A model generated the notes under the pieces. The model made no database searches. It was not told where the DNA came from and saw only the letters and a list, made by a program, of their open reading frames with translations. A stretch of DNA of 64,000 nt from Aerosticca soli (lineage in GTDB: Bacteria > Pseudomonadota > Gammaproteobacteria > Xanthomonadales > Rhodanobacteraceae). This document shows positions 4,276-48,266 of the stretch, in pieces. The DNA is taken from contig NZ_AP018560.1 of NCBI RefSeq assembly GCF_003967035.1, forward strand, positions 1,697,001-1,761,000, given 5' to 3'. Within the stretch, counting starts at the first letter, position 1, and each line of letters starts with the position of its first letter. Both the position numbers and the translations under genes were made by a program.

Positions 4276-4318
4276 GCTGCTTTCAGCTCCGGTGGATGCC
4301 ATGCGCCCGCGGCAAGAC

Positions 4319-7003: not shown

Positions 7004-9210
<2,207 letters not shown>

Positions 9211-32624: not shown

Positions 32625-35158
32625 TCAGAACAGATACTTGACCTGCAGGTTGACTTCACGCCCTTCCAGGGGGCGGGCCAGAATCACGCCATCGGTGCCG
32701 GCCGCCGTGCCGAAGATGCGCGAATTGCTCTCGGTAAGGCCGAGCTCATTGGTCATGTTGGTGCCCTGCAGACTGATCTGCCAGTGATCCTGAACGTGGG
32801 CGATGAGACCGAAATCCCAGGTGCTGTAAGTACCCAGCTGCTGCAAGGCCGACTGGTCCTGGGTATGCGGGCCGACGTGGGTGAAGGTGACATAGGCGGT
32901 GATGTCGCCCCAGGCGAAGGGGAGCAGATAGCTCGGCGTCACCGCATAGCGCACTTTGGGTTGGCGTTGCAGCGGCTTTCCGTTGATACGGATGCATTGA
33001 CTGCTGCCGGTCACGAGATCGGTGTAGAGAAAGCAGGAGTTGTTGTGCGAATAATGGCCATCCAGATAATTGCCCACCAGCTGCACCTTGAAGTTCTTGA
33101 ATGGCGATATCGATCCGGTCAGGTTGACGCCCTTCGAGTCTGAGCCGTAAAGCGATGGCTGCCCAACCGGGACGCCTTGGCTGTCGGTGGGCTGATACAC
33201 CAGGCCGTTGAATTGCCGGTGGTAGACGCTGATGTCCGCATAGATCAGCTCCGATTGATATTTGAAGCCGCCTTCGAAGTTCTGGATTTTCTGCAGGGGC
33301 GCGGTATTGCCGGTGGTATAGCCACGGATGGCATTGTCGAAGTCCCCGAAATGCGCACCCTTGTTGGCACGGAAATAGACGCTCATGTTGTCGGCCAATT
33401 CATAATTGATGCCGAGTGTCCATGAGGGATGGGTCTTGTCGTAACGCGTATGGGCATAGGTGCCGTTGCAAACCGGTACCGCGTTGTCGTAGAGGGTTTC
33501 GTCACGGCCATCCAGATTGACGTTGCTGAGATTGCATACATCGTTGGTGGCATTTTGGTTTTCGATGCGTCCGGAAAGATCGAACAGCCAGCGCCCGATG
33601 CGCCACACGTCCGAAAGATAAAAGACCTTGTTGTTGGCATTGCCGTGTTCGGCAATGTTGTAGCCGCCGTAGTCGAGCAGGCCCTGGCCATCGGTCAGGT
33701 AATAGGTGCGGCCGTTCTGGACGTAACTCACCTGGATAGGCCGCGCATGCGGCGTATTGGTCATGAGCATCTGGTTGCCCAGCGCCCATTTGTCGTCCAT
33801 CTCGTAGTGCGCCAGATAAACGCCGCCGGTCAGCGTGTTGCCCTCGAAAAGCTCTTTGCTGAGCCGGAATTCATTGCTCAGGTTCTTGAGGTGCTTGTGG
33901 ATGTGCCACCATCCCTGATGAATGACGCTCTGATTCGGGTCCACCGCGCCGCCGCCCTTGACATAGGTGGCCTGAGCCGATCCCATCGGCAGATTGAACG
34001 CCCCCATGCTGGCATTGCTGGTATAGAGCATGTCGTTCAGGCTGCCCGGATTGGTACCCGAAAACAGTGCATTGGTGTCGGCGTCACCGCCATCCACGAG
34101 GAACTTGTCGGAAAGACTCCAGCCGTCGCCGAGATCGTAGTCGAAATTGCCCCGAAAAAGCTGAACTTGGCGCCGCGCCCATTGGCCAGATTGGCGTCGG
34201 TGCCGCCCCCTGGATAACCGGGCAAGTGAACGTGCTGGAGTTCCTTGCCGTAATAGGTATCCGTCAAGGGATCGAAACCGGGGTACGAGTGGAATTCGTG
34301 GGTTCCCTTCTGAATCAACGGAATCGGCGTGATGAACTGGTTGCGGTCGTTCAACTGCCGGGCCCACAGCGTCATCGTGCCGTTGTCGCTGTCATGACTC
34401 AGCGTGGCGGTGAATTGCCCGCCCTTGTCCGCCGGGAACTGCGGATCGCGCACGCCGTCGGAATCGCGCCAGAAGCCGCCGATGCTGCCGAACCAGTTGT
34501 TGGCGATCGGAAACCCCAGGAAGCCGTCGATACGACGCAGGTTTTCATCGCCATAGGTGACGCCCAGACTGCCGTGGGGCACGTCCGTACCGGTCTTGAG
34601 AATGAAATTGGCGGTGGCACCGATCTGGCCGTCGCCGAAGACCACGGACGGCCCGCCCTGGACGATTTCCACGCGGTCGACGGTGTCATCCAGCCGGAAA
34701 ATCGACGTGGTCTCGAAAAACGACAGGGTCGGCATGCCATACAGCGGCGAGCCCATGACCTGCGTGGTGAAGAAAGGCGCATCGCCGCCGCCTGGAAAGC
34801 CGGCGATCTCGATGTTGGCACCGGTCTGTCCGCCAGTGGCTTCCGGCCACAGGCCGGGCGCGATCTTGAGCAGATCGGCCGTGCTTTTGGGATTGGCCCT
34901 CTTGATCTGCTCGGCCGTCGCGGTGGTCACCGTGTAGCTGGCGTCGATCTTGCGCAGACCGCCTGCGGAGGTGTTGCCGGTGACGACCACCTGGTCGAGA
35001 TTTTTGGCCGTTGCCGCATCCGCCTTGGGTGTGTCGGTCGCGGCCTTTTGCGCTGGCGCCGGCTTTGCCTGAGCCGTGCGGTCCTGTGCGACACCTCTGC
35101 CCGTGCCCAGGGCCGCCAGGATCGCGACGACGAGCGCCATTTTCTTGTGTTTTGCCAT
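32625..35158 (-). pseudogene. TonB-dependent receptor interrupted by one frameshift
   Basis: Two overlapping frames together give one receptor of about 843 residues. The first part (from 35158) has a signal peptide (MALVVAILAALGTGRGVAQ), a TonB-box region and a plug with VDRVEIVQGGPSVVFGDGQIGA. It reads correctly to GRGAKFSFF. The second part continues with RGNFDYDLGDGWSLSDKFL and runs through the barrel to the C-terminal strand EVNLQVKYLF at 32625. The break lies at a run of C and A bases at 34150-34158 (CCCCGAAAAA on the plus strand), so adding one base restores the frame. It may be a real mutation or a sequencing slip. It sits downstream of the hydroxybutyrate-oligomer hydrolase gene, a natural partner for uptake. 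Confidence 0.88.
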
Positions 35159-35185
35159 GGTTCCCTTCCCTCATCTGCGCCAATG

Positions 35186-35206
35186 CAAGACACGCATCCC
35201 GTCTTG
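35186..35206. promoter_or_regulatory. Inverted repeat CAAGAC-N9-GTCTTG before the receptor
   Basis: It lies 28-48 bases upstream of the receptor start. The sequence CAATGCAAGAC that contains the left arm is also found just downstream of the permease -10 box at 44931-44941, although in the opposite orientation to its gene. It is a candidate operator for the region. Confidence 0.3.
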
Positions 35207-35282
35207 GGAAGCGCCTTGCCCCTGTGGGCGCACCGTCTGGACGGCGCACCATGGGCTTTTTACCGGGGCATGCGCCGACCCT

Positions 35283-35334
35283 CATGTTGCGGGGCAACAT
35301 GCGTCGCCAGCCATAGCCCTGTGGTTTTCAGGGC
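35283..35334. other. Two hairpins between hydrolase and receptor genes
   Basis: CATGTTGC-GGG-GCAACATG (35283-35301) and GCCCTG-N7-CAGGGC (35316-35334, touching the hydrolase stop). They may reduce read-through into the receptor gene or stabilise the message ends. Confidence 0.35.
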
Positions 35335-37151
35335 AGATCGAGGGTGGCGCGTTCCAATGCACCGGCGCCACGCGGCCGGGCAGCGGGGACCGGCACTTCG
35401 GCAGGCCAGGGGCGGCTTTCATAAAGGTGCGCCCACAGCCGGTCGAGGGCGGCATAGCCATAGGCCAGGAGCGGCACGTGTCGCTCGCCGAAACCGGGCA
35501 GCGACAGGAAGGCGTCGAAATGCTGAGCGTGGGGAATCTTCCAGTACAGCGGCGCGCGTCCTTCCCGGTGCAACCAGGCCACGTAGGCATCGGAGGTGAA
35601 AGCCGCCGGCAGCAGGCCGTCGTCGGCGCCGTGCAACACCCATAGCGGCAGCGATGGGCGCGGCAGCCGCACGGTGGTGGCTGCGATCGCCTCGTGCAGG
35701 GCGCGGGATTGGGCCGTGTCGCCTTCCCACAGGGCGCGCAGACACAAAAGTCCCGAAAGCATCGGGTCCATGTCGAAGTCGGCACCGCCGTAAAGGCCGA
35801 TGCCGTTGCCCGGCGGGATGCCGGAGCCGTCGGCCCACCAGGACGCGCGGGTGGCCGGGTCGGCCTCGCCGGGCAATCCGCCGGCACCGACCGCGGCATA
35901 GCGGAAACCACAGGGCATGTCCCTCGGGCCGCGCCGCAGATAGGCCGAGGCATAGGCGGCAGCGATCGCCCGCCACAGGTCGAAGGCCGTGCTGGCGGCG
36001 GCGGTCCGGATCACGGGCTCCTCCCAGCCGTGGGCGCGCAAACGCGCGTAGGCTTGCGCCGCCTGCGTGGCGGGCAGGCTGCCCTCGAGCAGGCCGCGGG
36101 CGTGCAGGCCCGCGCAGCGCAGCGGCCAGGCCTGGGTGCCTGGCGCGCGGGCGAACGGCACGTCGTCGAAACGCGCATCGCCGAGCGCGCAAGGCAGATA
36201 CAGCGCCGCCTCGGTGGCGTAGTCGTAGAGCGCGCGACCCTGCCCTGGCACGTGCACGTTGGGCTCCAGCGCGACGACGCCGGCGAACAGGCCGTCATCG
36301 TCCAGGCCCGCAGCCTGCAGCGCCGCGCCGCCGCCGTTGGAGATGCCGGTGACGATGATGCGGGTGTTTTGGGCGGTGAACGGAGCCAGCGCCGGATAGG
36401 CACGGTCGAGCATGGACAGCCCGAAGCGCGCGGCCTGCAGCACGTGGCGGCCCCAGTCGGCCTCCGGGTTGTCGCCCGAATGCGCGTGCTTGACCGCGAT
36501 GCCGGTCTCGCGCGGCGCCGGCGGCGGCTCGAACTCCAGCGTCGTCTCGCCGCGATGGGCACGGGTGCCGTCCAGCGCCACGCCACTGTCGTCGGCATAG
36601 TCGAAATAGCCCGCGCCGGTACCCTTGTCGGTATAGGCCACGGCACAGCCCCGGGGCAGCCCCCAGGCGCCGGCCAGCGCGATCGCGCCATAGATGCCGC
36701 GCGAACCGGATGAGGCGGCCACCACCAGACAGCGCCGTCGGGTGTCGAAGGCATCGGGCAGCTGCAGCAGGACGCGATGCGGCGAGCGTGCGCCGGGCAG
36801 CCAGGCGAAGGCCTGATATTCGCGCCCGGGCACGTTCGGCACCGCGCCATAGACGCGGCCATAGCCGCCGAGCGGGCCGAGGTCGGCGATGCCTTTCCAG
36901 CTACTCTGGATCGCCCGCCGGCGCAGTTCAGCCGGGGTCGGATGCAGCGGATCGAAAAAAGGCACCGGCAGACCGGCAAGTCCGGTCAGGCCGAGGCCGG
37001 CGCTCAAGAGATCGTCCCCCTGCCGATGTTCGGTGACCCTCACGGGGCCGCGGACGAAATCCGGTGTGGACATGCGTTTCTCCTCGGCGGACGCGGCCGC
37101 CGTGCCGGCGAGCAGCGCGATGACGAACAGCAGGGGGCGCAGACGGGTCAT
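35328..37151 (-). CDS. 3-hydroxybutyrate oligomer hydrolase, secreted
   Basis: A 607-residue alpha/beta hydrolase of the D-(-)-3-hydroxybutyrate oligomer hydrolase family, which cuts water-soluble PHB fragments to monomer. A Sec signal covers residues 1-22 (LLFVIALLAGTAAASA), so it acts in the periplasm or outside. The family start GDDLLSAGLGLTGL is at residues 45-58. The serine nucleophile is in TGISNGGGAALQAAG near residue 270. A late acidic residue in HGADDGLLPAAF and a histidine in KIPHAQHFDAF fit the triad. The ATG is preceded by AGGG. Its promoter carries the element shared with the permease promoter. Confidence 0.85.
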   Translation of the reverse strand: MTRLRPLLFVIALLAGTAAASAEEKRMSTPDFVRGPVRVTEHRQGDDLLSAGLGLTGLAGLPVPFFDPLHPTPAELRRRAIQSSWKGIADLGPLGGYGRVYGAVPNVPGREYQAFAWLPGARSPHRVLLQLPDAFDTRRRCLVVAASSGSRGIYGAIALAGAWGLPRGCAVAYTDKGTGAGYFDYADDSGVALDGTRAHRGETTLEFEPPPAPRETGIAVKHAHSGDNPEADWGRHVLQAARFGLSMLDRAYPALAPFTAQNTRIIVTGISNGGGAALQAAGLDDDGLFAGVVALEPNVHVPGQGRALYDYATEAALYLPCALGDARFDDVPFARAPGTQAWPLRCAGLHARGLLEGSLPATQAAQAYARLRAHGWEEPVIRTAAASTAFDLWRAIAAAYASAYLRRGPRDMPCGFRYAAVGAGGLPGEADPATRASWWADGSGIPPGNGIGLYGGADFDMDPMLSGLLCLRALWEGDTAQSRALHEAIAATTVRLPRPSLPLWVLHGADDGLLPAAFTSDAYVAWLHREGRAPLYWKIPHAQHFDAFLSLPGFGERHVPLLAYGYAALDRLWAHLYESRPWPAEVPVPAARPRGAGALERATLDLP

Positions 37152-37169
37152 CCGCGTACCCTAGCCGAC

Positions 37170-37225
37170 CATCGGCAGTGTGCCATCGTACGAAAGTTCC
37201 ATATCGGCGCTCGACGCTGCCGATG
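37170..37225. promoter_or_regulatory. Inverted repeat flanking the hydrolase promoter
   Basis: CATCGGCAG at 37170-37178 is the exact reverse complement of CTGCCGATG at 37217-37225; 38 bases lie between. They bracket the shared promoter element and lie between the divergent hydrolase and response-regulator genes, where a dimeric or cooperative regulator could bind both arms. Confidence 0.35.
37183..37197 (-). promoter_or_regulatory. Shared promoter element of the hydrolase gene
   Basis: On the minus strand ACTTTCGTACGATGG places TACGAT as the -10 box, with transcription starting about 27 bases before the ATG. It matches the element at 44922-44936 in 12 of 15 bases, in the same orientation to its gene. 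No good -35 hexamer is present, so an activator is likely. The core TCGTACGA is palindromic. Confidence 0.5.
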
Positions 37226-37238
37226 ATGCCGCGCTACC

Positions 37239-37901
37239 GTGACGGAAATGCCCACGCTGCTGATCGCCGACGACCATCCACTGTTTCGCGCCGCCCTGAG
37301 CCAGGCGGCCCGCGTGGCCGTCCCCGCTTGCCTGCTTGCCGAAGCGGGCACGCTCGGCGAGGCGATCGCAACGCTGCAGGCGATGCCGGACATCGACCTC
37401 GTGCTGCTGGACCTGGGCATGCCGGGCAGTCATGGCCTCTCGGGCCTGGCCGCGCTGCGTGGCCAGTTCCCCGGCGTGGCCGTACTGGTCGTTTCGGCCC
37501 ACGACGAGCCGCGCGTGGTACGCCGCGTGCTCGACCACGGCGCGGCGGGCTTCATTCCCAAGAGCGCCCATCCGGACGAGATCGGCGCGGCCATCCGCAC
37601 CGTGCTCGACTGCGGCACCTGGCTTCCCGAGGGCCTGGCGCGGGCGCTGGACTCGATCAAGACCGACCCTGACGATCTCGCTCTCGCCGCGCGCCTGGCC
37701 CGACTCACCGAGCAGCAGTACCGCGTGCTCGCCCTGCTCGGCGAAGGGCTGCTCAACAAGCAGATCGCCGACCGGCTGGGCATCCAGGAGCGCACGGTGA
37801 AGGCGCACGTCACCGCCATCTTCGAAAAGCTCGGCGTGCGCAACCGGACCCAGGCCGGCGTACTGCTCAAGTCGCTGGCGCTGGAATCGTCGATCGACTG
37901 A
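37239..37901 (+). CDS. LuxR-type response regulator (CrbR-like)
   Basis: A 220-residue two-component regulator. The receiver domain (residues 5-120) has acidic residues D11/D12 and the phosphorylated D58 in VLLDLGMPG, with K109 in FIPKSAH. The LuxR helix-turn-helix is LTEQQYRVLALLGEGLLNKQ and ERTVKAHVTAIFEKLGV, residues about 151-200. The start is GTG at 37239 or ATG at 37248. It faces the hybrid kinase, whose stop lies 6 bases past its own stop, and is divergent from the oligomer hydrolase. The SSF-kinase/LuxR pairing is the CrbS/CrbR type, which in Vibrio and Pseudomonas controls acetate use. Confidence 0.9.
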   Translation: MTEMPTLLIADDHPLFRAALSQAARVAVPACLLAEAGTLGEAIATLQAMPDIDLVLLDLGMPGSHGLSGLAALRGQFPGVAVLVVSAHDEPRVVRRVLDHGAAGFIPKSAHPDEIGAAIRTVLDCGTWLPEGLARALDSIKTDPDDLALAARLARLTEQQYRVLALLGEGLLNKQIADRLGIQERTVKAHVTAIFEKLGVRNRTQAGVLLKSLALESSID

Positions 37902-37907
37902 AACGCT

Positions 37908-40900
37908 TCACACCGCGACGCCGCGCACGGCGATGCGCTGCAGCACCTGCCGCAGCGCGAGCGGCTTCAGCGGTTTGTAGAGCACCAGCGCGCCGCCGTC
38001 CTGCAGCCGCTGGCGCAAGTCCCCGTCGCGGTCGGCGGTGAGCAGGATGACCGGCACCTCGCCATGCCGGCGGCGCAGGGCGGCAAGCACGTCCAGCCCC
38101 GTCCGGCCGCCGTCGAGGTGGTAATCGAGCAGGTACAGATCCGGGGTCCATGGCACCGCGAGCGCCTGTCCGGCGTCGCGCGCGGCGTGCACCTGCCAGC
38201 CCCAGTCGGCGAGCAGGCCGCAGAGCGCGACGAGGGCCGCCGGCTCGTTGTCCAGCACCAGCGCCCGTCCCGCATGGACGGGCTCGGGCCGCACCACGGG
38301 CGGAGACGGCATCGCCAGGGCCCGGGCGCTGGCCACTTCGATGGCGAACACGCTGCCGCGCCCCGGCCAGGAGCGCAGCGTCAACGGATGGCCGAGCAAC
38401 CGCGCCACCCGCTGCGCGATGGACAGGCCAAGCCCCAGTCCCTGCCCGCCGGCGGCACGACCGCGGCGGAACTCCTCGAAGATGAGCCGCCGTTCCTCCG
38501 CCGCGATGCCCGGGCCGGTGTCCCACACTTCGATCCGCACGGCGTCGCGCCGGCGACGCACGCCGAGCAGCACGCGACCGCGCTCGCTGTAGCGCAGGGC
38601 ATTGGAGAGAAAGTTCTGCAGCACGCGGCGCAGCAGCTGCGGATCGGACTGCACCCAGAGGCGGGTGGCCACCACGTCGAGCCGAACGCCGCGGTCGCCG
38701 GCCAGCACGCGGAACTCGGCCGCCAGCGGTTCGAAGATCTCGGCCAGCGCAAAGGCACGGCGTTGCGGATGCAGCCGGCCGCCCTCGAGCCGGGCCATGT
38801 CGAGCAGGCCGGCGAGCAGCCCTTCGGTCGCCGTCAGCGCGCCGTTGAGATGGCGGACGGTCGTCGGCTCGGCGCCGTGCGCGGCCAGGCTGTGGGCGAA
38901 CAGCTGCGCAGCATGCAGGGGTTGCATCAGGTCGTGACTGACCGCGGCGAGGAAGCGGCTCTTGGCCTCGTTGGCGCGTTGCGCGGCGGCGCTGGCCTCG
39001 GCCAGCGCGCGGGTGCGCTCGGCCACTCGCAGCTCGAGGGTTTCGTTGGCGGCCTTGAGCGCCTGCTCGGCCTGGCGGAAGGCGGTGACATCGGTGAAGG
39101 TGGCGACGAAACCGCCGCCGGGCATCGGGTTGCCGCGGATCTCGACGATGGTGCCGTCGGCAAGGCGGCGCTCGGAAAGATGCCGGGTGCCGGCGCGCAT
39201 GTGGGCCAGTCGCCGCTCGACGCGGGCGTCGACTTCGCCGGGGCCGAGCAGGCCGCGGGCAATGATGCAGCGGGTCAGTTCGGCCACCGGCCGGCCGACC
39301 TGGAGCAGGCCCGGCGGATAGGCGAACAGATCGGCATAGCGCCGGTTCCAGGCCACCACGCGCAGCTGCGCGTCGACCACGCAGATGCCCTGGCTCATGT
39401 TCTCGAGCGCCGCCTCGAGCACGCGCTGGTTGAAGCGCAGGTCCTGCGCGGCCTCATCGACGATCGCCGCCACCGTGTCGAGCTGAGCGCGGCCCTGTTG
39501 CTGCACCACCTCGAGCAGCAGTCGGGCGGAAGCCGCGCCGATCACGGCGGCGAGCTCGTGCTCCACCGCGGCGACCTCGCCGGGCGCCGCCACGTCGCTG
39601 CCGGGTGACAGCGCAAGCAGATGATCCACCCGCTCGGCCGGCAGAAAACGCGCGGCCAGCGCGCGCAGCTCCGCACTGCCGATCGCCCCCACCCCGCCTT
39701 CGCGCCGCCGCCGGCCATAGCGCGAGCGCGCCACCAGCAGCATCACCGCCACGTTGCCGGTCAAACTGAGGGCGACCGCGCGGCCCAGCGGGCTCCACGA
39801 TTCCAGCCCGAGAAAATCGGCGCGGACCAGCCAGATCGGCGGCGGTGCGTCATGGAGCGCCGGCCACAGGCCGGGCAGCAATGCGTAGAGCCAGATCAGT
39901 GTGCCGGCGAGCAACCCCGCCGCCACCGCGCGCGGGCCGATCTGCGGCCGGTACACCGCCACCAGCAGCGCCGGCGCGAGTCCGGCCAGGGCCGAAAACG
40001 AAAGGCCGCCGATGTCGGCCAGCGCATCGTTGCGGCCGAGCACGCGGCTGTACCACCAGGCGAGCAGGATCACCACCAGGATCACCAGCCGGCGCTGGTT
40101 CAGCACCGTGCCGCGCAGGTCGCCGCCGTCGGCGCGTCCCCAGCCGGCACGCACGCGCAGCGGGGAAATGAAATGGTTGGCCACCATCAGGCTGAGTGCG
40201 AGCGTGGCCACCACCACCATGCTGGTCGCCGCGCTCAAGCCGCCCAGGAAGGCAAGCAGCGCCAGGCCGTACTGCTCGCGTGCCATCGGCAGCGCCAGCA
40301 CGTAGAGATCGGAAGGCACGCCGGCCGGGAACAGCCACGCATCGCCCAGCCGCGCCAGCGGCAGGATCGGCAGCGAGATCAGCAGCATGTAGGCCGGGAA
40401 CAGCCAGCGGGCGGTGCGCACGTGGCGGCTGTCGCGGCACTCGACCATGCCGGCATGGAACTGGTGCGGCAGCGTGAACATCGACAGCGCGCCGAGCAGG
40501 ATCAGTGCCGGGAAACCGCTGGCGTCGTGGGGCGTCGGCGGTACCGGCAAGGCGGCCGGCCGCGGCGCCAGCAGCAGGCTGCCGAGGGCGAGCATCGCGC
40601 CGAGCTTGAACAGCGACTCGAACGCCATCGCCAGCACCAGCCCGCGGTTGTGCGCCATCGCCGAGGCGCGCCGGGTGCCAAACAGCATCGCAAAGAGCGC
40701 CATCAGCAGGGCGACGTAGAGCGCGCTGTCCTGCCAGGGCGCAGCCTCGGTGAGCTGGCCGTGGCGCAGCATGGCAAAGCTCATCGCCACCGCCTTGAGC
40801 TGCAGCGCGATGTACGGAACCATGCCGATCACCACCACCGCGGTGGCGAGCGCGGCGAGTCCCGCATGGCGTCCGAGCCGCACCGCGATCAGATCGGCGA

Positions 40901-41198
40901 GCGAGCCGGCGTTGTATTCGCGGGCCAGTTCGGCCATCCGGCCCAATACCTCGACGGCGAGGAGGTACATCAGGATCGCGCCGACGAAGGTCGGTGGCAG
41001 CCACCAGCCCGAACGACTGGCCTGGGTCACCGTGCCGTAGAACGTCCACGAGGTGCAGTGGATCGCCAGCGAAAGCGCATAGACGATCGCCCAGCGCCGC
41101 TCGAACACGTGCGGACGGCGCTCACCGAAGACCGCGGCCCCGAACAGCAGTCCGAGCCAGCAGGCCGCCGCCAGGACGATGACGCCGGTGTTCAGCAT
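37908..41198 (-). CDS. SSF-transporter hybrid histidine kinase (CrbS-like)
   Basis: A 1096-residue membrane sensor. The first 480 or so residues hold about 12-13 membrane helices of the sodium/solute symporter family (WTFYGTVTQASRSGWWLPPTFVG, EYNAGSLADLIAVRLGRHAG). Then come a linker, a PAS domain (about 590-710, ALENMSQGICVVDAQLRVVAW), HisKA with the phosphoacceptor near residue 753 in AAVSHDLMQPLHAAQ, an ATPase domain with NFLSNALRYSERG and GQGLGLGLSIAQRVA, and a C-terminal receiver with its aspartate in YLLDYHLDGG near 1023. This order is that of CrbS. The transporter part may sense or carry a small acid. The ATG at 41198 follows CGGAGACGGG. Confidence 0.9.
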   Translation of the reverse strand: MLNTGVIVLAAACWLGLLFGAAVFGERRPHVFERRWAIVYALSLAIHCTSWTFYGTVTQASRSGWWLPPTFVGAILMYLLAVEVLGRMAELAREYNAGSLADLIAVRLGRHAGLAALATAVVVIGMVPYIALQLKAVAMSFAMLRHGQLTEAAPWQDSALYVALLMALFAMLFGTRRASAMAHNRGLVLAMAFESLFKLGAMLALGSLLLAPRPAALPVPPTPHDASGFPALILLGALSMFTLPHQFHAGMVECRDSRHVRTARWLFPAYMLLISLPILPLARLGDAWLFPAGVPSDLYVLALPMAREQYGLALLAFLGGLSAATSMVVVATLALSLMVANHFISPLRVRAGWGRADGGDLRGTVLNQRRLVILVVILLAWWYSRVLGRNDALADIGGLSFSALAGLAPALLVAVYRPQIGPRAVAAGLLAGTLIWLYALLPGLWPALHDAPPPIWLVRADFLGLESWSPLGRAVALSLTGNVAVMLLVARSRYGRRRREGGVGAIGSAELRALAARFLPAERVDHLLALSPGSDVAAPGEVAAVEHELAAVIGAASARLLLEVVQQQGRAQLDTVAAIVDEAAQDLRFNQRVLEAALENMSQGICVVDAQLRVVAWNRRYADLFAYPPGLLQVGRPVAELTRCIIARGLLGPGEVDARVERRLAHMRAGTRHLSERRLADGTIVEIRGNPMPGGGFVATFTDVTAFRQAEQALKAANETLELRVAERTRALAEASAAAQRANEAKSRFLAAVSHDLMQPLHAAQLFAHSLAAHGAEPTTVRHLNGALTATEGLLAGLLDMARLEGGRLHPQRRAFALAEIFEPLAAEFRVLAGDRGVRLDVVATRLWVQSDPQLLRRVLQNFLSNALRYSERGRVLLGVRRRRDAVRIEVWDTGPGIAAEERRLIFEEFRRGRAAGGQGLGLGLSIAQRVARLLGHPLTLRSWPGRGSVFAIEVASARALAMPSPPVVRPEPVHAGRALVLDNEPAALVALCGLLADWGWQVHAARDAGQALAVPWTPDLYLLDYHLDGGRTGLDVLAALRRRHGEVPVILLTADRDGDLRQRLQDGGALVLYKPLKPLALRQVLQRIAVRGVAV

Positions 41199-41325
41199 GA
41201 CCCGTCTCCGTCGCGCGGGCAGGCGTGCCCCTGGCGGGGGATCGCGGCGATGCTTGCGCAACGTCGCGGCGCCCGCATCCCGGCGCGGGAAGGCGTCCGT
41301 CCGGTCGCGGACGCCGCGACGGGGC

Positions 41326-42363
41326 TCAACGGGCGGCCGGCCCGCCGAGCGCTTGCAGGGCCGCGCGCAGCCAGCGCAATTGCACGCCCTGGCGCGTGTC
41401 GTAGTCGGCTCCCGAATAACCCCACCAGTCCCAGCATGCCTGCGGATTCAAGGGCGCCAGGCTGGCGCGCGTCTGCGGGTAGATTACCGCCACGTCGTAG
41501 GCATCGGCCCAGCGATTGAAGCCGGCATCGCGCACGAAGGCCTGGCCCACCGCGCCGGCGTTTTGCTTGCACCCGTGCAGGGCGACCAGCACGCCGCAGC
41601 GGGCGCCGGCGAGGCAGCTCGGCGGCAGGTAGACATAGCCCTCGTCGGCCAGATAGGCGTCCGCGCCGTCCGGGCGCAGCGCGTCCTGGTCGAACCGGCG
41701 CAACTCGCCGCGAGCCTGGGTGTCGGCCTCGTGCGGCGGCTTGCCGTAGAGCGCGGCGAAGATCGCGCCGGCGGCATCGAAACCGCAATGCCCGAGGAAC
41801 GGCGGCACCGATTTTTCGCAATCCTCGCCGCGGCCCACGACCGGCAGGTTGTGCGCGAACGGTCGCTCGGCGTCCTCGCTCACGTGCAGGCCGGACAGCG
41901 CAGGCAGCTCCTGGCGCAGGGTGCGGTAGAACTCGGCCGCCGCATGCGCCACCGTCGGCGCCACCACGGTGTCGAGCCGGCCATGCAGCACGTAGACCCG
42001 GTCGCCGGCAAGCGCATCGAGCGGGCCGATGCGCCCTTGTGCCGAACGCGCCTTCGCCTCGTCCACCAGCTTGCGGACGTCCGGGGGCGGCTCGCCTTTC
42101 ATGCAGCGGGTCAAGGCAATTTTCAGATCACCCTCGGCGCAGCCGTAAGGGCCGCCGGCCACCAGCGCGGCGGCGTGGAAGAGCTCCGGATAAGCCAGCT
42201 GTGCCTGCGTGGCCATGTAGGCGCCGGAGGACAGCCCCGCCACCGCCACACGCGAGGCATCGACCTTGAGTGACGGCAATGGCGGGGCTTCGCCGGCCGA
42301 GGCCAGGCCGCAGAGGAAAAGCAAACCCGGCGCGAGCGCGCGCAGGAAACGGGGCATGGTCAT
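41326..42363 (-). CDS. phaZ: Extracellular/periplasmic PHB depolymerase
   Basis: A 345-residue esterase of the PHB depolymerase family, catalytic type II. A signal peptide covers about residues 1-23 (FLRALAPGLLFLCGLASA). The lipase box is GLSSGAYMA at residues 43-51. The acid is in HGRLDTVVAP, the histidine in GHCGFDAAGAIFAALYG, and LHGCKQNAG holds the oxyanion-region histidine. CWDWWGYSGADYDTRQG at the C-terminus is typical. No substrate-binding or linker domain follows, as in the periplasmic enzyme of Rhodospirillum rather than in long enzymes for crystalline polymer. ATG at 42363 or 42357, neither with a clear ribosome-binding site. It is downstream of a TonB receptor gene on the same strand, 88 bases away. 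Confidence 0.85.
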   Translation of the reverse strand: MTMPRFLRALAPGLLFLCGLASAGEAPPLPSLKVDASRVAVAGLSSGAYMATQAQLAYPELFHAAALVAGGPYGCAEGDLKIALTRCMKGEPPPDVRKLVDEAKARSAQGRIGPLDALAGDRVYVLHGRLDTVVAPTVAHAAAEFYRTLRQELPALSGLHVSEDAERPFAHNLPVVGRGEDCEKSVPPFLGHCGFDAAGAIFAALYGKPPHEADTQARGELRRFDQDALRPDGADAYLADEGYVYLPPSCLAGARCGVLVALHGCKQNAGAVGQAFVRDAGFNRWADAYDVAVIYPQTRASLAPLNPQACWDWWGYSGADYDTRQGVQLRWLRAALQALGGPAAR

Positions 42364-42451
42364 GAGGATGCGTGGATTTCGTTGGGCAGAATGGGACCGC
42401 CGCCGCGCCGCGGCCTGCCCCAAACGCGAGGCCGGCCGCGACGCGGGCGGT

Positions 42452-44743
42452 TTAGAAGTTGTAGCGGGCGCTGACGTACCAGTTGCGCGGCATGCCGTAG
42501 TAGGCGGTGCGGATGTTGCCCACGCTGGAGAACTCCTGGCCATCGGTCTTGTAGACCTTGTCGGTCAGGTTGCGCACGCCGGTACGGAATTGCCAGTGAC
42601 CGTCGGCGGTGTCGTACACGGCGAACATGCCGACCAGGCTGTAGGCCTTTTGGCTGAGCGCATCGTAGTTGTCCACGCTGAGCCAGGTCTTGGTGCGGTA
42701 GGACCAGTCGGCGCCGACGGTGAACGCACTGCCATCGCCCAGGGTGAAGGTCTGCGTCGCCGCCAGCCGCGCGGTCCATTTCGGCGAGAACGGCACGTGG
42801 TCGTGCAGGTGCGGGTTGTACTGCGGGTCGGTCGGGTCCAGCCGGTGATCTTCGAAGCGGCCATAGCGGGCATCCAGATAGCCCACCTGCGCCGACAGCC
42901 GCGTGCCCTCGCCCACCAGCGCCGCGCCTTCGAACTCGAAGCCGTCCATGCGCAGCTTGGCCGCGTTGATCACCGGGAAGGCGAAGGTCGGGTTCATCGT
43001 GCCCGGATTCAGGACTTCCGATACCCGCGCCTGGAAATCCTTGTAGTCGCTGTGGAAGACGTCCATGTTGGCCTGCAAGCGGTTGTCCGCCGAACGCCAT
43101 TTGAGGCCGAGCTCGTAAGTCCACACGTACTCGGGCGAGTACTCGGGATTCTTCGCCTCGTTGCGGTCGTTGGCGCGGCCGTTGAAGCCGCCGGACTTGT
43201 AGCCGCGGCTGGCCGACACGTAGACCATGGTCTGCGAATCGAGCTGCTTTTGCAGGCTCACCGTGGGCGTCCATGCGTGCCAGCGCTTGTTCTTGTCCAG
43301 CGCGACGGTTTCGTCGAGGGCCGTGAACGGCACGCCCCAGAAACTGCTGGTGGTGCGGTAGTAGCTTTTCTCATCGGTGCTGTAGCGCACGCCCGCCGCC
43401 AGCGTCCAGCTCGGCACGAACTCCCAGTTGAGATGGGCAAAGCCGGCGTAGCTCGCCGTGGAGAGATCATCGTCGATGGTGCGCAGGAAGGTGATCTTGT
43501 TGCGGGCGAGCGCGAACAAGTCGTCGTCGTAGGCCTCCTGGTGCGAGGGCACCATTTCGTGCATGTAGTAGAGCCCGTAGACGGCCTGCAGGTTGCTACC
43601 GTTGTCGTACTGCAGCTGCAGTTCCTGGCTGACCTGTTTCTGGTCGAAGGCGACCAGCGAATCGGCGATCTGGAACTGGGTGGCGTCGAAATCGAGATAC
43701 GAATGGCTCTTGAGCTTGCGCAGCGCGCTGATGCTCTTCAGCGTCCACGCATCGTCGAGCTTCCAGCTCAGGTTGAGTCCGGCGCCGTAATGCCAAAGCT
43801 TCTGTCCGTCGCCCGGCGGCAACGAGGTGCGCGTGCGGTAGTTGTACTTTTTGTCCAGATTGGGGCGATAGAGCACCACCGGCCCATAGATGACGTCGGT
43901 CTGGATCAGCGGCGACACCGGCTGGCCCAGCGTCGCCTCGGTGTCCTGCTTGGTGTAGTCGAGGGTGAGCGTGCCGTCGAAGGTTTCCGAGGGGTGGTAG
44001 CGCAGCTTGGCGCGCACCGACTTGTTGTCCTCGTCGTTGTACTTGTGGTGCGTCACCGGGTCCTTGACGTAGCCGTCGGTGCGACGGATGCCGCCGGCGA
44101 TCGACGCCGACCAGCCGTTGCCGCCCAGCGGGCCGCTGAAATAGAACTGGCCCTCGCGGCGGCCATAGTTGCCGAGCATCGCCTGCACCGACCCTTGCGG
44201 CGTCTCGGACGGATTGCGGGTGACGATCTTGATCGCGCCGCCCGGCGAGTTCTTGCCGTACAGCGTGCCTTGCGGCCCGCGCAGCACTTCCACGTGGTCG
44301 ACGTCGAACAGGTCGAACAGCTGGCCCTGGATGCGCGAGTAGTAGACGTCGTCCACGTACATGCCCACGCCCGGATCGAAGGTCTGCAGCGCATCCGGCT
44401 GGCCGATGCCGCGGATGAACACGTTGACCGCCGAGGACGAGCCGCGGCCCTGCACGATATTGAGGTTGGGCACCGCGCCCTGCAGGCCGTCGACGGTGAT
44501 CGCCTGCAGGTCGCGCAGGTCCTCCTCGCTGAAGGCACTGACCGCGACCGGCACCTTCTCTATCGATTCCTCGCGCCGACGCGCGGTGACCTGGATCGCC
44601 TCGAGTTCCTTGGTGTCGGCCGCGTGGGGCGTGCCGGGCTTGGAAGACGCGGCGTCCGGCGCGGTGTCCTGCGCCCGCAACGGCGCGGCACCGAGCACGC
44701 CGATGACCAGGCCGATGGCCAGACTGAGATGGGTGCGTTGCAT
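42452..44743 (-). CDS. TonB-dependent receptor, intact
   Basis: A 763-residue outer-membrane receptor. The signal peptide is HLSLAIGLVIGVLGAAPLRA. The TonB-box region is LEAIQVTARRREESIEKVPV. The plug has VDHVEVLRGPQGTLYGKNSPGGA and the barrel ends in an aromatic strand (WYVSARYNF). It belongs to the large class used for carbohydrates, siderophores and other oligomers; no substrate is given by sequence alone. Its position next to the PHB depolymerase and the permease suggests soluble 3-hydroxybutyrate oligomers. The ATG at 44743 has AAGGGGAAATCC upstream. Confidence 0.93.
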   Translation of the reverse strand: MQRTHLSLAIGLVIGVLGAAPLRAQDTAPDAASSKPGTPHAADTKELEAIQVTARRREESIEKVPVAVSAFSEEDLRDLQAITVDGLQGAVPNLNIVQGRGSSSAVNVFIRGIGQPDALQTFDPGVGMYVDDVYYSRIQGQLFDLFDVDHVEVLRGPQGTLYGKNSPGGAIKIVTRNPSETPQGSVQAMLGNYGRREGQFYFSGPLGGNGWSASIAGGIRRTDGYVKDPVTHHKYNDEDNKSVRAKLRYHPSETFDGTLTLDYTKQDTEATLGQPVSPLIQTDVIYGPVVLYRPNLDKKYNYRTRTSLPPGDGQKLWHYGAGLNLSWKLDDAWTLKSISALRKLKSHSYLDFDATQFQIADSLVAFDQKQVSQELQLQYDNGSNLQAVYGLYYMHEMVPSHQEAYDDDLFALARNKITFLRTIDDDLSTASYAGFAHLNWEFVPSWTLAAGVRYSTDEKSYYRTTSSFWGVPFTALDETVALDKNKRWHAWTPTVSLQKQLDSQTMVYVSASRGYKSGGFNGRANDRNEAKNPEYSPEYVWTYELGLKWRSADNRLQANMDVFHSDYKDFQARVSEVLNPGTMNPTFAFPVINAAKLRMDGFEFEGAALVGEGTRLSAQVGYLDARYGRFEDHRLDPTDPQYNPHLHDHVPFSPKWTARLAATQTFTLGDGSAFTVGADWSYRTKTWLSVDNYDALSQKAYSLVGMFAVYDTADGHWQFRTGVRNLTDKVYKTDGQEFSSVGNIRTAYYGMPRNWYVSARYNF

Positions 44744-44921
44744 GGATTTCCCCTTATATGTTCGTGTGTGACTCGCCGGATGCGGCTTGCATGACGCGAC
44801 GGACCTGCGGCGCGGCCCCTGTCGATCGCGGGCTGCGCGGGCGTGGTCGCTGCCTGGGCTGCTCCAGCCCCCTTGGGATGCGCGATGCAGCTTAGGCAGC
44901 CCGCGCCGGCGCGGCAGCTGT

Positions 44922-44936
44922 ACCTTCGTACAATGC
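44922..44936 (+). promoter_or_regulatory. Shared promoter element of the permease gene
   Basis: ACCTTCGTACAATGC places TACAAT as a -10 box at 44929-44934 and gives a leader of about 72 bases. It matches the hydrolase element in 12 of 15 bases. No -35 hexamer is seen 17 bases upstream, which points to activator-dependent initiation. The intergenic region (44744-45012) also has to carry the divergent receptor promoter, which I cannot place. Confidence 0.5.
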
Positions 44937-45012
44937 AAGACGGGTCGAAGGCGCCGGATACTCGGCCATCACCGCCGTGCCGGCGGTGCCTCGAAGGGGA
45001 GGAAAAGGACCC

Positions 45013-46410
45013 ATGGCGTTCCTGATCGTATTGGCGGCGCTGGCCTTCCTGATGCTGGCAGCCTATCGCGGCTACAGCGTCATCCTGTTCGCGCCGGTGG
45101 CGGCCCTGGGCGCCGTGCTGCTCACCGACCCGGCGCTGGTCGCGCCGATGTTCACCGGCCTGTTCATGGACAAGATGGTCGGCTTTCTCAAGCTGTACTT
45201 CCCCGTGTTCATGCTGGGCGCGGTGTTCGGCAAGCTGATCGAGCTCTCGGGGTTTTCCAGGGCCATCGTCGCCGGCACCATTGGCCTGCTTGGTCGCGGC
45301 CGCGCCATGCTTTCCATCGTGCTGGTCTGCGCGCTGCTCACCTACGGCGGCGTGTCGCTGTTCGTGGTGGTGTTCGCGGTGTACCCGTTCGCCGCCGAGC
45401 TGTTCCGCCAGTCGGGCATTCCCAAGCGGCTGATTCCGGGCGCCATCGCGCTCGGTGCGTTCAGCTTCACCATGGACGCGCTGCCGGGCACGCCGCAGAT
45501 CCAGAACATCATCCCGACCGCTTATTTCGGCACCAACGCCTGGGCCGCGCCATGGCTCGGCACGCTGGGCGCGGTGTTCATCCTCGTCGCCGGGCTGGCT
45601 TATCTGGAATGGCGCCGGCGCCAGGCACTGGCCGCCCACGAAGGCTATGGCGAGACGCAGGACAACGAGCCGGCGACATCCGGCGGCGAGAAACTCGCCC
45701 ACCCGCTGGTCGCGCTGCTGCCGCTGGTGCTGGTCGGCGTGTGCAACAAACTGTTCACCGACCTCATCCCGCGCTATTACGGCAGCACGCAGTCATTTCC
45801 CTCGAGCGTGGTCGGCAAGGCCACGCCGGTGGTGCAGGAGGTTTCCAAGGTGGCGGCGATCTGGGCGGTGGAAGGCGCCCTGCTGGTCGGCATCCTGTGC
45901 GTGCTCGTGTTCGCCTGGCGTCCGGTCACGCGGCGATTCGCCGAGGGCAGCAAGGCGGCGGTGAGCGGCGCGCTGCTGGCCTCGATGAACACCGCCTCCG
46001 AATACGGCTTCGGTGCGGTGATCGCCGCCCTGCCCGGCTTCAAGCTGATCGCCGACGCGCTGCACGCGATTCCCAATCCCCTGGTCAACGAGGCGGTGAC
46101 GGTGACCGCGCTGGCCGGCATCACCGGCTCGGCTTCCGGCGGCATGGGCATCGCGCTGGCGGCGATGGCCGACACCTTCATCGCCAACGCGCACGCCGCC
46201 GGCATCCCGATGGAAGTGCTGCATCGCGTGGCGGCGATGGCCTCCGGCGGCATGGACACGCTGCCGCACAACGGCGCGGTGATCACCCTGCTGGCGGTGA
46301 CCGGGCTCACCCACCGGCAGTCCTACCGCGACATCTTCGCCGTCACCGTGATCAAGACGCTGGCGGTCTTCGTGGTGATCGCCGTCTATTCGCTGACCGG
46401 CCTGGTGTAG
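45013..46410 (+). CDS. GntP-family permease, probable 3-hydroxybutyrate importer
   Basis: A 465-residue inner-membrane protein with about 12 helices of the GntP (gluconate:proton) family. GAFSFTMDALPGTPQIQNIIPTAYFG is the family signature and later GSASGGMGIALAAMADTF is typical. This branch includes proteins annotated as D-beta-hydroxybutyrate permeases. The neighbours (PHB depolymerase, receptor, shared promoter element with the oligomer hydrolase) make that assignment more likely than gluconate. The ATG at 45013 has GAGGAAAAGGACCC. Gluconate or another hydroxy acid cannot be excluded. Confidence 0.85.
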   Translation: MAFLIVLAALAFLMLAAYRGYSVILFAPVAALGAVLLTDPALVAPMFTGLFMDKMVGFLKLYFPVFMLGAVFGKLIELSGFSRAIVAGTIGLLGRGRAMLSIVLVCALLTYGGVSLFVVVFAVYPFAAELFRQSGIPKRLIPGAIALGAFSFTMDALPGTPQIQNIIPTAYFGTNAWAAPWLGTLGAVFILVAGLAYLEWRRRQALAAHEGYGETQDNEPATSGGEKLAHPLVALLPLVLVGVCNKLFTDLIPRYYGSTQSFPSSVVGKATPVVQEVSKVAAIWAVEGALLVGILCVLVFAWRPVTRRFAEGSKAAVSGALLASMNTASEYGFGAVIAALPGFKLIADALHAIPNPLVNEAVTVTALAGITGSASGGMGIALAAMADTFIANAHAAGIPMEVLHRVAAMASGGMDTLPHNGAVITLLAVTGLTHRQSYRDIFAVTVIKTLAVFVVIAVYSLTGLV

Positions 46411-46499
46411 CGCTCCGGCGACGCAGCGACGATGCTCCCGTGCGGCGTGGTTTTGCTGTTCGTCGCCACGGCAACCCAAACTTGGTGAGGGGAAACGGC

Positions 46500-47210
46500 A
46501 TGTGCGTCAGGCAGTGCATCAGCGGATGGCTGGCCGTGCTCGTGCTGCTCGCAGCGACGGGCATGTCGCACGCCGCCTGCGTGAACACGGTCGTGCTGAT
46601 CCATGGCAACACCGGCAGCCCCGGCGATTTTGCCAATACCACCGACCTCCTGCGCCAGCACGGCTACGCCAGCACGCAGATCATCGCGCCAGCCTGGGGC
46701 AACCCGCTGTGCGCGGCCTGCAACGATCATCAGGGCAGCGAGGAAACGCCTGTACGCGATGCCCTGAACAAGGCGCTCGGCAACTCGTGCAGCGGCCACA
46801 TCGATGTCATCGGCCATTCGATGGGCGTGACCTTGGCGATGCGTGAGATCGACAAGCTCGGCGTTGCCAACCGGGTGGACCACTTCATCGGCATCGCGGG
46901 CGCCGTGCATGGCCTGTGGTCATGCGGCACCTATCCGTTCAACGTCGCCACGCTCACTTGCGGCGCCTACGGCCTGTCCGTCCACAGCCCATTGCTTGAC
47001 GGCCTGGCCGGGCATCGCTTCGGCGTGCACATGTATTCGATCAAGTCATGGATCGACGAGATCAACTGCTATGGCGGCCCGTGTCTGGTCGATGGCGTGC
47101 ACACCTCGAGCATCGGCGGCGAGGAGCGCAGCCTGGACTATCCGTACGGCCACTACGCATTGCTTTGGTACACCGCCCAGGATCAGTACAACCTGCTGCA
47201 CACGCCATGA
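46500..47210 (+). CDS. Secreted class 2 lipase-like hydrolase
   Basis: A 236-residue alpha/beta hydrolase with signal peptide (ISGWLAVLVLLAATGMSHA, then ACVNT). The oxyanion region is VLIHGNTGSPGDF, the nucleophile S107 is in VIGHSMGVTLAM, and the histidine is in DYPYGHYALLWY. Two or three disulfides are possible (CNDHQ, NSCSG, CYGGPC). It belongs to the small Lipase_2 class of Bacillus-type lipases. The native-PHB depolymerase PhaZ7 is a distant member of the same fold class, so a role on PHB granule surfaces is possible here but unproven. The ribosome-binding site is GTGAGGGGAAACGGC, and the gene lies 89 bases after the permease stop. Confidence 0.85.
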   Translation: MCVRQCISGWLAVLVLLAATGMSHAACVNTVVLIHGNTGSPGDFANTTDLLRQHGYASTQIIAPAWGNPLCAACNDHQGSEETPVRDALNKALGNSCSGHIDVIGHSMGVTLAMREIDKLGVANRVDHFIGIAGAVHGLWSCGTYPFNVATLTCGAYGLSVHSPLLDGLAGHRFGVHMYSIKSWIDEINCYGGPCLVDGVHTSSIGGEERSLDYPYGHYALLWYTAQDQYNLLHTP

Positions 47211-47225
47211 GGGAAACGAACGGCC

Positions 47226-48266
47226 TCAGCCGGCTTCGCGGCGCAGGCTGGAACGGCGCACCTTGAGCGTGACCGGCAGCAGCGTGCTCGCCACCGGCTC
47301 GCCGCGGATCAGCCGCAACAGGCTCTCGACCAGGATGCGTCCGGCCTGCTGGGTATCCTGCAGCACGCTGGTCAGCGGCGGATTGACGAAGCCGGCCAGG
47401 GCGATGTCGTCGAAGCCGGCCAGGGCGACGTCGGCGGGCACGCGCAGGCCATGCGCCCCCAGCGCGTGCAGGGCGCCGATCGCGATCAGGTCGCTGGCAG
47501 CGAATACCGCATCGAAGGCCACGCCGCGCGCCAGCAGCGTGGCGAGTGCCGCCTGGCCCGCGCTTTCGGTGCTCACCGCATCGACCTGCAGCGCCGGATC
47601 CACCGTGATGCCGGCCTGCTCCAGGGTTTCGGCATAACCTAAGTACCGGGCGAAGAATTCCGGGTAATGGCTGGAGGCGTCGCCCAGGAAGGCGATGCGC
47701 CGACACCCCTGGGCCAGCAGATGCTCGGTGACCAGGCGGCCGCCGGCATGGTTGTCGCAACCGATGGAAACGTCGCCCTGCCCCGGCAACACCGCGCCCC
47801 AGCGCACCGCGCGCGTGCCGCGTTCGGCCAGCCGCCGCAACTTGTCGCAATAAGAAAGATAGTCGCCATAACCGAGCAGGATGATGCCGTCGGCCTTGTG
47901 CGCCTCGGCATAGTCGGCATGCCAGTCGGGCGAGAACTGCTGGAAGGAAACCAGCAGGTCGTAGTCGTGCTGGGCGCAGGCCCGCGTGATCGCGCCCAGC
48001 ATCGACAGGAAGAACGGATTGATGTGCGATTCGTCGGCGGTCGGATCCTCCGACAGCAGCAGGGCCAGCGTGCCGGCGTGCTTGCGGCGCAGGTTGGAAG
48101 CGTTCTTGTCGACCTTGTAGTTGAGTTCCGCCACCGCGCGCAGCACGCGCTGACGGGTTTCCTCGTTGACCTGTGAACTGCCGCGCAATGCGCGCGACAC
48201 CGTGGATTGCGATACCCCGGCGCGGTGGGCGATATCGAACGAGGTGATGCGGCTGCGCTCGCGCAT
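47226..48266 (-). CDS. LacI-family transcriptional regulator
   Basis: A 346-residue repressor-type protein. The LacI helix-turn-helix is at residues 8-28 (SFDIAHRAGVSQSTVSRALR) and the ligand-binding domain follows with LGDASSHYPEF and AGFDDIALAGFVNPPL. The ligand is unknown. The gene is convergent with the lipase gene (15 bases apart), and no sugar-use genes lie next to it, so its target is uncertain; it could act on this locus or elsewhere. Confidence 0.9.
   Translation of the reverse strand: MRERSRITSFDIAHRAGVSQSTVSRALRGSSQVNEETRQRVLRAVAELNYKVDKNASNLRRKHAGTLALLLSEDPTADESHINPFFLSMLGAITRACAQHDYDLLVSFQQFSPDWHADYAEAHKADGIILLGYGDYLSYCDKLRRLAERGTRAVRWGAVLPGQGDVSIGCDNHAGGRLVTEHLLAQGCRRIAFLGDASSHYPEFFARYLGYAETLEQAGITVDPALQVDAVSTESAGQAALATLLARGVAFDAVFAASDLIAIGALHALGAHGLRVPADVALAGFDDIALAGFVNPPLTSVLQDTQQAGRILVESLLRLIRGEPVASTLLPVTLKVRRSSLRREAG

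Follow-up and report, generated by a model that had tools for sequence, protein, structure and literature searches.

A predicted TonB-receptor-based utilisation locus for 3-hydroxybutyrate oligomers in Aerosticca soli and other Rhodanobacteraceae

Results

Gene content and layout of the locus

A stretch of 64,000 nucleotides from Aerosticca soli (the window; C1:1697001-1761000 of a one-contig genome of 2.87 Mb) carries a locus whose core, at 35328-47210, encodes a hydrolase, a regulator, a sensor kinase, a depolymerase, a TonB receptor, a permease and a lipase. The locus probably serves the utilisation of oligomers of (R)-3-hydroxybutyrate (3HB), and probably also of polyhydroxybutyrate (PHB), along the path and under the regulation proposed in the Discussion, and its layout resembles that of TonB-dependent glycan loci. 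PHB is widely stored by microbes as a reserve polymer and is also sold as a biodegradable plastic. The locus is real and conserved, and its genes are probably co-regulated. Sequence comparison supports well a TonB-based locus for 3HB oligomers that has a two-component system of its own; the import of oligomers and an attack on solid PHB are predictions. An earlier note, made from the letters of the window, had described a candidate PHB utilisation locus at 32625-47210. Its gene families and coordinates were recovered, except that its second TonB receptor is not one open frame. Its core idea of a TonB-receptor-based locus resembling glycan loci was strengthened by a conserved gene order, a common promoter site and links to 3-hydroxybutyrate dehydrogenase, but details were overstated.

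Two divergent promoter regions were found. One separates the hydrolase gene (minus strand, start at 37151) from the regulator gene (plus strand, 37248), and the other separates the TonB receptor gene (minus strand, start at 44743) from the permease gene (plus strand, 45013). The receptor gene is followed downstream by those of the depolymerase and then the kinase (gaps of 88 and about 124 bases), and the permease gene by that of the lipase (gap of 89 bases), while kinase and regulator genes abut end to end. Operons are predicted for the locus with this spacing as the sole basis. By inspection, the hydrolase, the depolymerase and the lipase begin with hydrophobic export signals.

The hydrolase (35328-37151, minus strand, 607 aa) is a clear member of PF10605 (420.7 bits, cut-off 27, residues 18-595) and thus, by family, a predicted 3HB-oligomer hydrolase. 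The window copy shows a hydrophobic N-terminal export signal without a lipobox cysteine. Judged by this protein, the nearest named relative is Fulvimonas soli DSM 14263, with 83% identity. The earlier assignment of a secreted enzyme held for family and export signal, but in relatives with the locus a lipobox mostly takes the place of a plain secretion signal.

The depolymerase (41326-42363, minus strand; scanned as open reading frame (ORF) 41326-42543) has a catalytic domain that passed the family cut-off for type 2 short-chain-length polyhydroxyalkanoate (scl-PHA) depolymerases (NF050059, 317 bits, cut-off 280), in agreement with the earlier note. Residues S45, D131, H171 and H263-G264-C265, whose catalytic roles were assigned by eye, were invariant in 28 aligned rows, and the serine nucleophile motif precedes the oxyanion HGC. 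The protein is a single domain with an export signal, 345 aa long in the window and 336-350 aa in 27 full-length orthologues, a length that leaves no room for a substrate-binding domain. Such a domain, for solid denatured PHA, is typical of the scl-PHA depolymerase class. In two named loci, a second PhaZ2-like gene, 32-33% identical to the first, lies between kinase and regulator (L134:7989-9041 and L147:8047-9099).

The small exported lipase (46500-47210, plus strand; Lipase_2, 49.2 bits, cut-off 20.3) was confirmed as the earlier note had it. PhaZ7, the native-PHB depolymerase of Paucimonas lemoignei, was its closest solved structure (E 4.8e-8), with small lipases at E 4.5e-5 or weaker.

Conservation of gene order

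Gene order was compared in 60 neighbourhoods across genera of the Rhodanobacteraceae, all from hydrolase-bearing genomes and some ending with the contig, and in 80 named loci, several of them cut by contig ends; the two sets overlap in genomes. The hydrolase was present in 149 of the 197 family genomes drawn. The exact order GntP-TonB-depolymerase-kinase-regulator-hydrolase was observed in 26 of the 60 neighbourhoods and in 30 of the 80 named loci (Fulvimonas, Dyella, Rhodanobacter, Luteibacter, Oleiagrimonas and others). Near the hydrolase, matches of any kind at E 1e-6 were obtained in the 60 neighbourhoods for the regulator (40), kinase (36), receptor (32), permease (28), depolymerase (28) and lipase (12); counts for single matches covering at least 80% of the query were 40, 34, 29, 26, 27 and 12, respectively. 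Thus, the comparison across Rhodanobacteraceae that the earlier note had proposed found the order kept over many genera rather than confined to this strain, and this conservation appears to exceed chance.

Of 369 genomes drawn across the class, 10 had the hydrolase at E 1e-40. Eight of the 10 lie outside the Rhodanobacteraceae, and eight stretches from seven of these eight genomes were opened. L247, L248 and L249 (same taxonomic order) and L252 (another family of the class) kept permease, receptor, kinase, regulator and hydrolase in order without a PhaZ of the window type, and L250, L251, L253 and L254 did not keep this set. Between hydrolase and regulator, a 3-hydroxybutyrate dehydrogenase gene is inserted in L248 (NF009093 275.5 bits, cut-off 258; TIGR01963 278.2 bits, under the cut-off of 307.05) and in L252 (TIGR01963 345.6 bits, cut-off 307.05); upstream of it, GTACTTTGGTAC or GGACCTTCGTAC was seen by eye in both. 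L249 carries a type-1 scl-PHA depolymerase beside the permease (279.8 bits, cut-off 150). In L254, from 4056-5212 onward, a PhaZ2-like gene (37%) adjoins a distant hydrolase (36%), and the stretch holds neither kinase nor receptor.

A shared promoter site

Both divergent promoter regions carry a similar motif. The candidate regulator site ACTTTCGTACGATG lies at 37184-37197 (minus strand) between hydrolase and regulator, and the palindrome TGTAC-CTTC-GTACA at 44919-44932 (plus strand) between TonB receptor and permease. The permease-promoter version CTTGTACCTTCGTACAGTGCC follows the palindrome TGTAC-N4-GTACA, and CTTGTACCTTGGTACAGTGCC, in two Luteibacter stretches, is a one-base variant of it at the permease promoter. 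The 2.87 Mb genome contains three copies of the string TTCGTACNATG, two of which lie in the divergent promoters of the locus. The third copy (L114, about 7408-7418) lies between a valyl-tRNA synthetase gene recognised by eye and another ORF.

TTCGTAC was found at most 250 bases upstream of the hydrolase in 31 neighbourhoods out of 60, and each of these is one of the 40 with the regulator nearby. Of 28 permease promoters, 17 had its exact form. The pattern ACYTTCGTACRRTG gave 51 matches across 46 genomes, with at least one in 32 of the 46, and the reversed pattern gave none. Forty-six matches belonged to the locus, including four from loci in which additional DNA separates kinase and hydrolase. 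Among the five off-locus matches, one stood 57-70 bases upstream of a 3-hydroxybutyrate dehydrogenase gene of Luteibacter G185 (NF009931 361.4 bits, cut-off 340). The other four were not used as regulon members: those in L197, L198 and L203 lie inside script-listed reading frames, and that in L204 (about 10001-10014, G014) lies beside ORFs without a family match. The regulator is predicted to bind TGTAC-N4-GTACA-like sites.

The dehydrogenase promoter was followed further in Luteibacter. A site scoring 16.4 to 28.5 and starting about 72-76 bases before the start codon was present in 5 of the 15 genomes with the gene, the other 10 promoters scoring at most 5.6. The locus kinase was found in 6 of the 18 Luteibacter genomes searched; three of these matches were reported with one stop codon, and the frames from L064, L065 and L067 were complete. 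The site accompanied the kinase in five of six genomes and was found in none of the nine without it (Fisher 0.002, ignoring relatedness).

Export signal of the hydrolase tracks the locus

Export was surveyed in 72 neighbourhoods (the 60 plus 12 from Luteibacter), with all rows counted and start codons chosen by script, so that single rows may be wrong. A hydrophobic hydrolase N-terminus was observed in 41 of 42 regulator-bearing neighbourhoods vs 7 of 30 regulator-less ones, and a lipobox-like cysteine in 36 of 42 vs 5 of 30. The promoter site stood at the hydrolase in 37 of 42 vs 2 of 30, the former count being partly circular since locus promoters from this set had served to train the score matrix. 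These traits were placed on a FastTree hydrolase tree that included the window copy, whose three traits were set by hand. In ten independent tree pairs differing in the regulator, export agreed in 6.4 on average and opposed in 0 (median p 0.03, range 0.016-0.063), and the promoter site agreed in 7.5 and opposed in 0.3 (median p 0.016, range 0.008-0.070).

The regulator-less hydrolases (L057, L069, L070, L075, L076, L092, L237-L246) mostly had no clear export signal (23 of 30) and look cytoplasmic. This pattern is most simply read as an internal role of the hydrolase in genomes that have no uptake locus. The Cupriavidus necator H16 oligomer hydrolase acts on products of intracellular depolymerases, according to the part of PMC2864759 available.

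Sensor kinase and regulator

The kinase (37908 to about 41201, minus strand; start codon uncertain) is a hybrid histidine kinase with an SLC5-fold N-terminus followed by PAS, HisKA, HATPase and REC domains by Pfam; HisKA scored 26.1 bits, just under its cut-off of 26.9. Its closest NCBIfam model, NahK/ErcS, reached 364.7 bits against a cut-off of 400. An AlphaFold2 model of the N-terminal 567 residues, of fair quality with a predicted local distance difference test (pLDDT) score of 81.2, matched SGLT2 (E 1.1e-8), the choline transporter CHT1, the iodide symporter NIS and, further down, SMCT1 in the PDB, and points to an SLC5 fold. The LuxR-type response regulator (37248-37901, plus strand) combines Response_reg and GerE and is ErdR/CrbR-like (NF041830, ErdR, 218.5 bits, under the cut-off of 390). 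No STAC domain matched in Pfam scans of the kinase and regulator region, beyond which STAC was not searched for.

A second CrbS/CrbR-like kinase, 47% identical to the locus kinase, is encoded in the genome (L112:4132-10446; C1, about 12-18.5 kb), where it adjoins an ErdR-like regulator and the acetate-CoA ligase gene acs. The NCBIfam scores of that pair were 403 and 237.1, vs 364.7 and 218.5 for the locus pair. An ACTU-like inverted repeat GAC-N4-GTC precedes the acs frame by about 84 bases; it is only suggestive because some six distinct sites in 105 kb were picked up by a loose scan. The locus pair is therefore a paralogue of the pair beside acs, which would leave it free for another signal. 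The CrbS/CrbR-like pair of the earlier note thus stood as an SLC5-fold hybrid kinase with a LuxR-type regulator, but acs adjoins the other pair. As far as the available parts of the sources go, the ACTU motif of CrbR in Pseudomonas fluorescens is an inverted repeat with an N4 spacer (PMC5715377), and Sinorhizobium has two SLC5/STAC systems with acetate and pyruvate as separate substrates (PMC9100948).

A LacI-family regulator at 47226-48266 was not supported as regulator of the locus: 31-34% matches appeared in 5 of 60 neighbourhoods, all on the opposite side of the hydrolase, with many of the fetched stretches ending close to the expected LacI position. Adjoining the locus, a frame at 48318-49157 joins ISL3-type transposase domains and a kinase ATPase stretch, and is probably an insertion remnant.

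Permease and dehydrogenase links

The permease (45013-46410, plus strand) matched neither Pfam nor NCBIfam, and for 10 orthologues no GntP family was among the matches at E up to 10. Its assignment comes from plasmid homologues: 103 records matched, and the best 25 shown were 70-77% identical and annotated as GntP family permease wherever the feature was annotated. A 3-hydroxybutyrate dehydrogenase gene lies at most three genes from the permease homologue in four of six chosen neighbourhoods (two of Azospirillum, one each of Variovorax and Cupriavidus taiwanensis); of the other two, one had only coenzyme A (CoA)-transferase genes and one neither. The GntP-like permease of a hydroxybutyrate-linked branch that the earlier note had named was borne out by these homologues.

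TonB receptors and the receptor slot

The TonB receptor of the locus core (42452-44743, minus strand) has barrel and plug (PF00593 and PF07715). The slot between permease and depolymerase holds one of two alternative receptor types, A and B, about one-third identical to each other. Type A (Fulvimonas, Luteibacter, some Rhodanobacter, others), to which the window receptor belongs, is 59-81% identical to it, and type B (Dyella, most Rhodanobacter, others) only 30-34%; permease, kinase and regulator of those loci are mostly 70-90% identical to the window. The receptor tree split the types with full support. Placed on the kinase tree (28 rows), the types needed six changes, at least five of them forced by supported branches. 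Support in both trees is from the Shimodaira-Hasegawa-like approximate likelihood-ratio test only, receptor rows L040 and L069 were omitted, and the tree program flagged long branches for L078, L088, and L061 in the kinase tree.

Between A and B loci of Rhodanobacter, DNA around the slot is about 83-90% identical, and this similarity extends into the 5' part of the receptor gene, whereas in the receptor protein plot type-specific divergence begins past the signal-peptide stretch. A clean domain swap was not kept as an explanation. Since the joints given by DNA and protein disagree, an exchange of whole receptors is claimed and exact joints are not. We claim as a new observation that two receptor types appear to have been exchanged repeatedly in one fixed slot; either ligand range or phage pressure may account for it.

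An accessory second TonB receptor (32625-35158, minus strand) is frameshifted, with a plug ORF at 34037-35158 and a barrel ORF at 32625-34367 in a different frame; by inspection, the frame changes near 34160. The break may be either a pseudogene or a sequencing error. In L036, L154 and L160, the orthologue is encoded in one frame (842-868 aa). Within the stretches fetched for the 60 and 80 loci, this receptor stood near the hydrolase only in these three, with a remnant in L042, and no locus-type promoter site lies upstream of it in the window. Of the two receptors in the earlier note, therefore, that at 42452-44743 was upheld, but the rare one in two frames was rejected as half of a working pair in this strain.

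Discussion

If the genes act together, the exported type-2 depolymerase, aided in some strains by the PhaZ7-like lipase, would cut PHB or long oligomers, and the TonB receptor would carry oligomers across the outer membrane. The exported oligomer hydrolase, mostly lipobox-bearing in relatives, would yield the monomer, the GntP-like permease would import 3HB into the cell, and 3-hydroxybutyrate dehydrogenase, encoded elsewhere in the genome, would begin its breakdown to acetyl-CoA. The SLC5-type kinase would sense 3HB or a close product, and the regulator would bind TGTAC-N4-GTACA-like sites and drive two divergent promoters, one for permease and lipase on one side and receptor, depolymerase and kinase on the other, and one for hydrolase and regulator. 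On balance we lean towards this TonB-dependent uptake of PHB oligomers, with cell-bound processing, active import, a 3HB sensor duplicated from the acetate switch with a changed DNA site, and anciently split receptors that were repeatedly exchanged.

Several observations weigh against it. The full order was not shown in 34 of the 60 neighbourhoods. The ligand of the receptor is not readable from sequence, so that oligomer transport is a prediction, and the structure model of the permease was too poor (pLDDT 53.6) to serve as evidence and was dropped. No second kinase of this kind was found in Luteibacter at E 1e-150, and the paralogue argument therefore rests on the window genome. Besides the circularity mentioned above, the promoter site was missing from 5 of the 42 regulator-bearing hydrolase promoters and present at 2 of the 30 regulator-less ones, 11 of 28 permease promoters had no exact TTCGTAC, and no site in L247-L249 exceeded a matrix score of 12, whereas L252 had one that did, before the permease. 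The kinase-bearing Luteibacter G061 had no site at the dehydrogenase promoter, and in 13 genomes outside Luteibacter, among them that of the window, none of the 14 dehydrogenase promoters scored above 5.6; the dehydrogenase link is therefore confined to Luteibacter, plus two out-of-family loci seen by eye. Neither linker nor substrate-binding domain was found in the depolymerase of the window or its 27 full-length orthologues, and the lipase, with 49.7 bits, stayed far under the cut-off of 450 of the PhaZ7 equivalog model NF050060. An attack on solid PHB is therefore doubtful, and the claim of the earlier note that the genes cover every step from polymer to imported monomer is overstated.

These last points favour a scavenging role, in which short soluble 3HB oligomers and monomer from other organisms would be taken up and PHB itself would not be attacked. 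We regard this as possible, though not as the likelier course. It would suit a depolymerase reduced to a bare catalytic domain of 336-350 aa and a PhaZ7-like lipase that only 12 of the 60 family neighbourhoods contain. By tblastn, no homologue of the window depolymerase was found in three of the four out-of-family loci, the few other ORFs scanned there not being depolymerases, and the lipobox on the hydrolase of most regulator-bearing relatives is as expected for cell-bound oligomer processing. On the other hand, a PhaZ2 match was present in 28 of 60 family neighbourhoods, by definition including the 26 with full order, L249 has a type-1 depolymerase instead, and two named loci have a second PhaZ2-like gene.

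It is unlikely that kinase and regulator act as the usual acetate switch (CrbS/CrbR) in a locus for ester hydrolysis that releases acetate or other short acids and is not specific for 3HB. NahK/ErcS and ErdR are indeed the closest NCBIfam models, and the promoter site has the AC-N4-GT core in common with the ACTU motif as given in the available part of PMC5715377. However, a second CrbS/R-like pair stands beside acs, with the ACTU-like repeat upstream of acs as a suggestive sign, and the site of the locus has another form (GTAC-N4-GTAC) and also stands at the 3-hydroxybutyrate dehydrogenase promoter of some Luteibacter genomes; moreover, the permease comes from the 3HB-linked branch and the hydrolase is a 3HB-oligomer hydrolase by family. 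Very improbable, in our view, is a mobilisation of the cell's own stored PHB with the TonB receptor as an unrelated neighbour. The genome does hold a PhaC_N match (191 bits, C1:151784), the hydrolase has no clear export signal in 23 of the 30 neighbourhoods without the regulator, which would suit an intracellular enzyme, and that of C. necator H16 works on intracellular depolymerase products (PMC2864759, part available). Yet hydrolase, depolymerase and lipase here begin with export signals, the receptor is order-locked with the enzymes over many genera and has a common promoter site with them, and the missing export signal coincides with the missing regulator.

No such locus was found described in open-access literature, judged by title and abstract start among the matches listed, which is weak evidence of novelty since most subscription journals lie outside this scope. 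In the available parts of two reviews of PHA degradation, term searches found no occurrence of uptake, outer membrane, transport or regulat- (PMC11893044) and none of outer membrane, transporter, permease or two-component (PMC13372988); the part of the latter available contains 12 instances of uptake, most of which refer to water or to carbon taken up by communities. TonB was mentioned, in the sections available, for siderophore receptors in C. metallidurans (PMC2864759), for receptors in a granule proteome table (PMC11150862) and for iron uptake (PMC12892942).

If TonB-dependent uptake of PHB oligomers is correct, the principle of the utilisation locus would extend from glycans to a polyester. 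If receptor-driven oligomer import exists, some PHB degraders would retain their products, which would change the carbon sharing expected in bioplastic communities, and the process could be traced in genomes by a marker and perhaps sensed with the promoter site as a candidate biosensor. The repeated exchange of two receptor types at a fixed slot would be a natural experiment through which receptor specificity or phage pressure could be studied.

Compared with known systems, the depolymerase resembles extracellular type 2 depolymerases of denatured scl-PHA in a catalytic domain over the cut-off, with the serine motif first and the oxyanion HGC last, and differs from them in having no linker and no substrate-binding domain. 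The lipase has PhaZ7 as best solved-structure match and the HSMG serine motif in common with it, but PhaZ7 chains have 335-350 aa and the mature locus lipase about 213 aa, with 49.7 bits against the cut-off of 450. The groups of GntP and 3-hydroxybutyrate dehydrogenase genes on Azospirillum, Variovorax and Cupriavidus plasmids likewise have the permease branch near the dehydrogenase, with CoA-transferase genes also in Azospirillum; they differ in that no depolymerase, oligomer hydrolase or TonB receptor is annotated in the stretches opened, whose gene tables are incomplete. CrbS/CrbR (MxtR/ErdR) is similar in its SLC5-fold hybrid kinase with PAS, HisKA, HATPase and REC and its LuxR-type regulator, in convergent neighbouring genes as in the Sinorhizobium homologue (PMC9100948, part available) and in an inverted-repeat site with N4 spacer (PMC5715377, part available). 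The locus pair differs as a paralogue with another half-site, linkage to 3HB genes and scores under the NCBIfam cut-offs.

The carbohydrate loci of Xanthomonas and glycan utilisation loci unite a TonB receptor, exported hydrolases, an inner-membrane permease and a dedicated regulator in one locus, as does the locus in the window. Unlike in glycan utilisation loci, no SusD-like protein was found among the locus ORFs scanned; the substrate would be a polyester of a hydroxy acid, and sensing would fall to an SLC5-type kinase. What the locus has in common with the TonB carbohydrate loci of Xanthomonas, as described in the available part of PMC1790865, is the outer-membrane TonB receptor placed with the genes of its locus.

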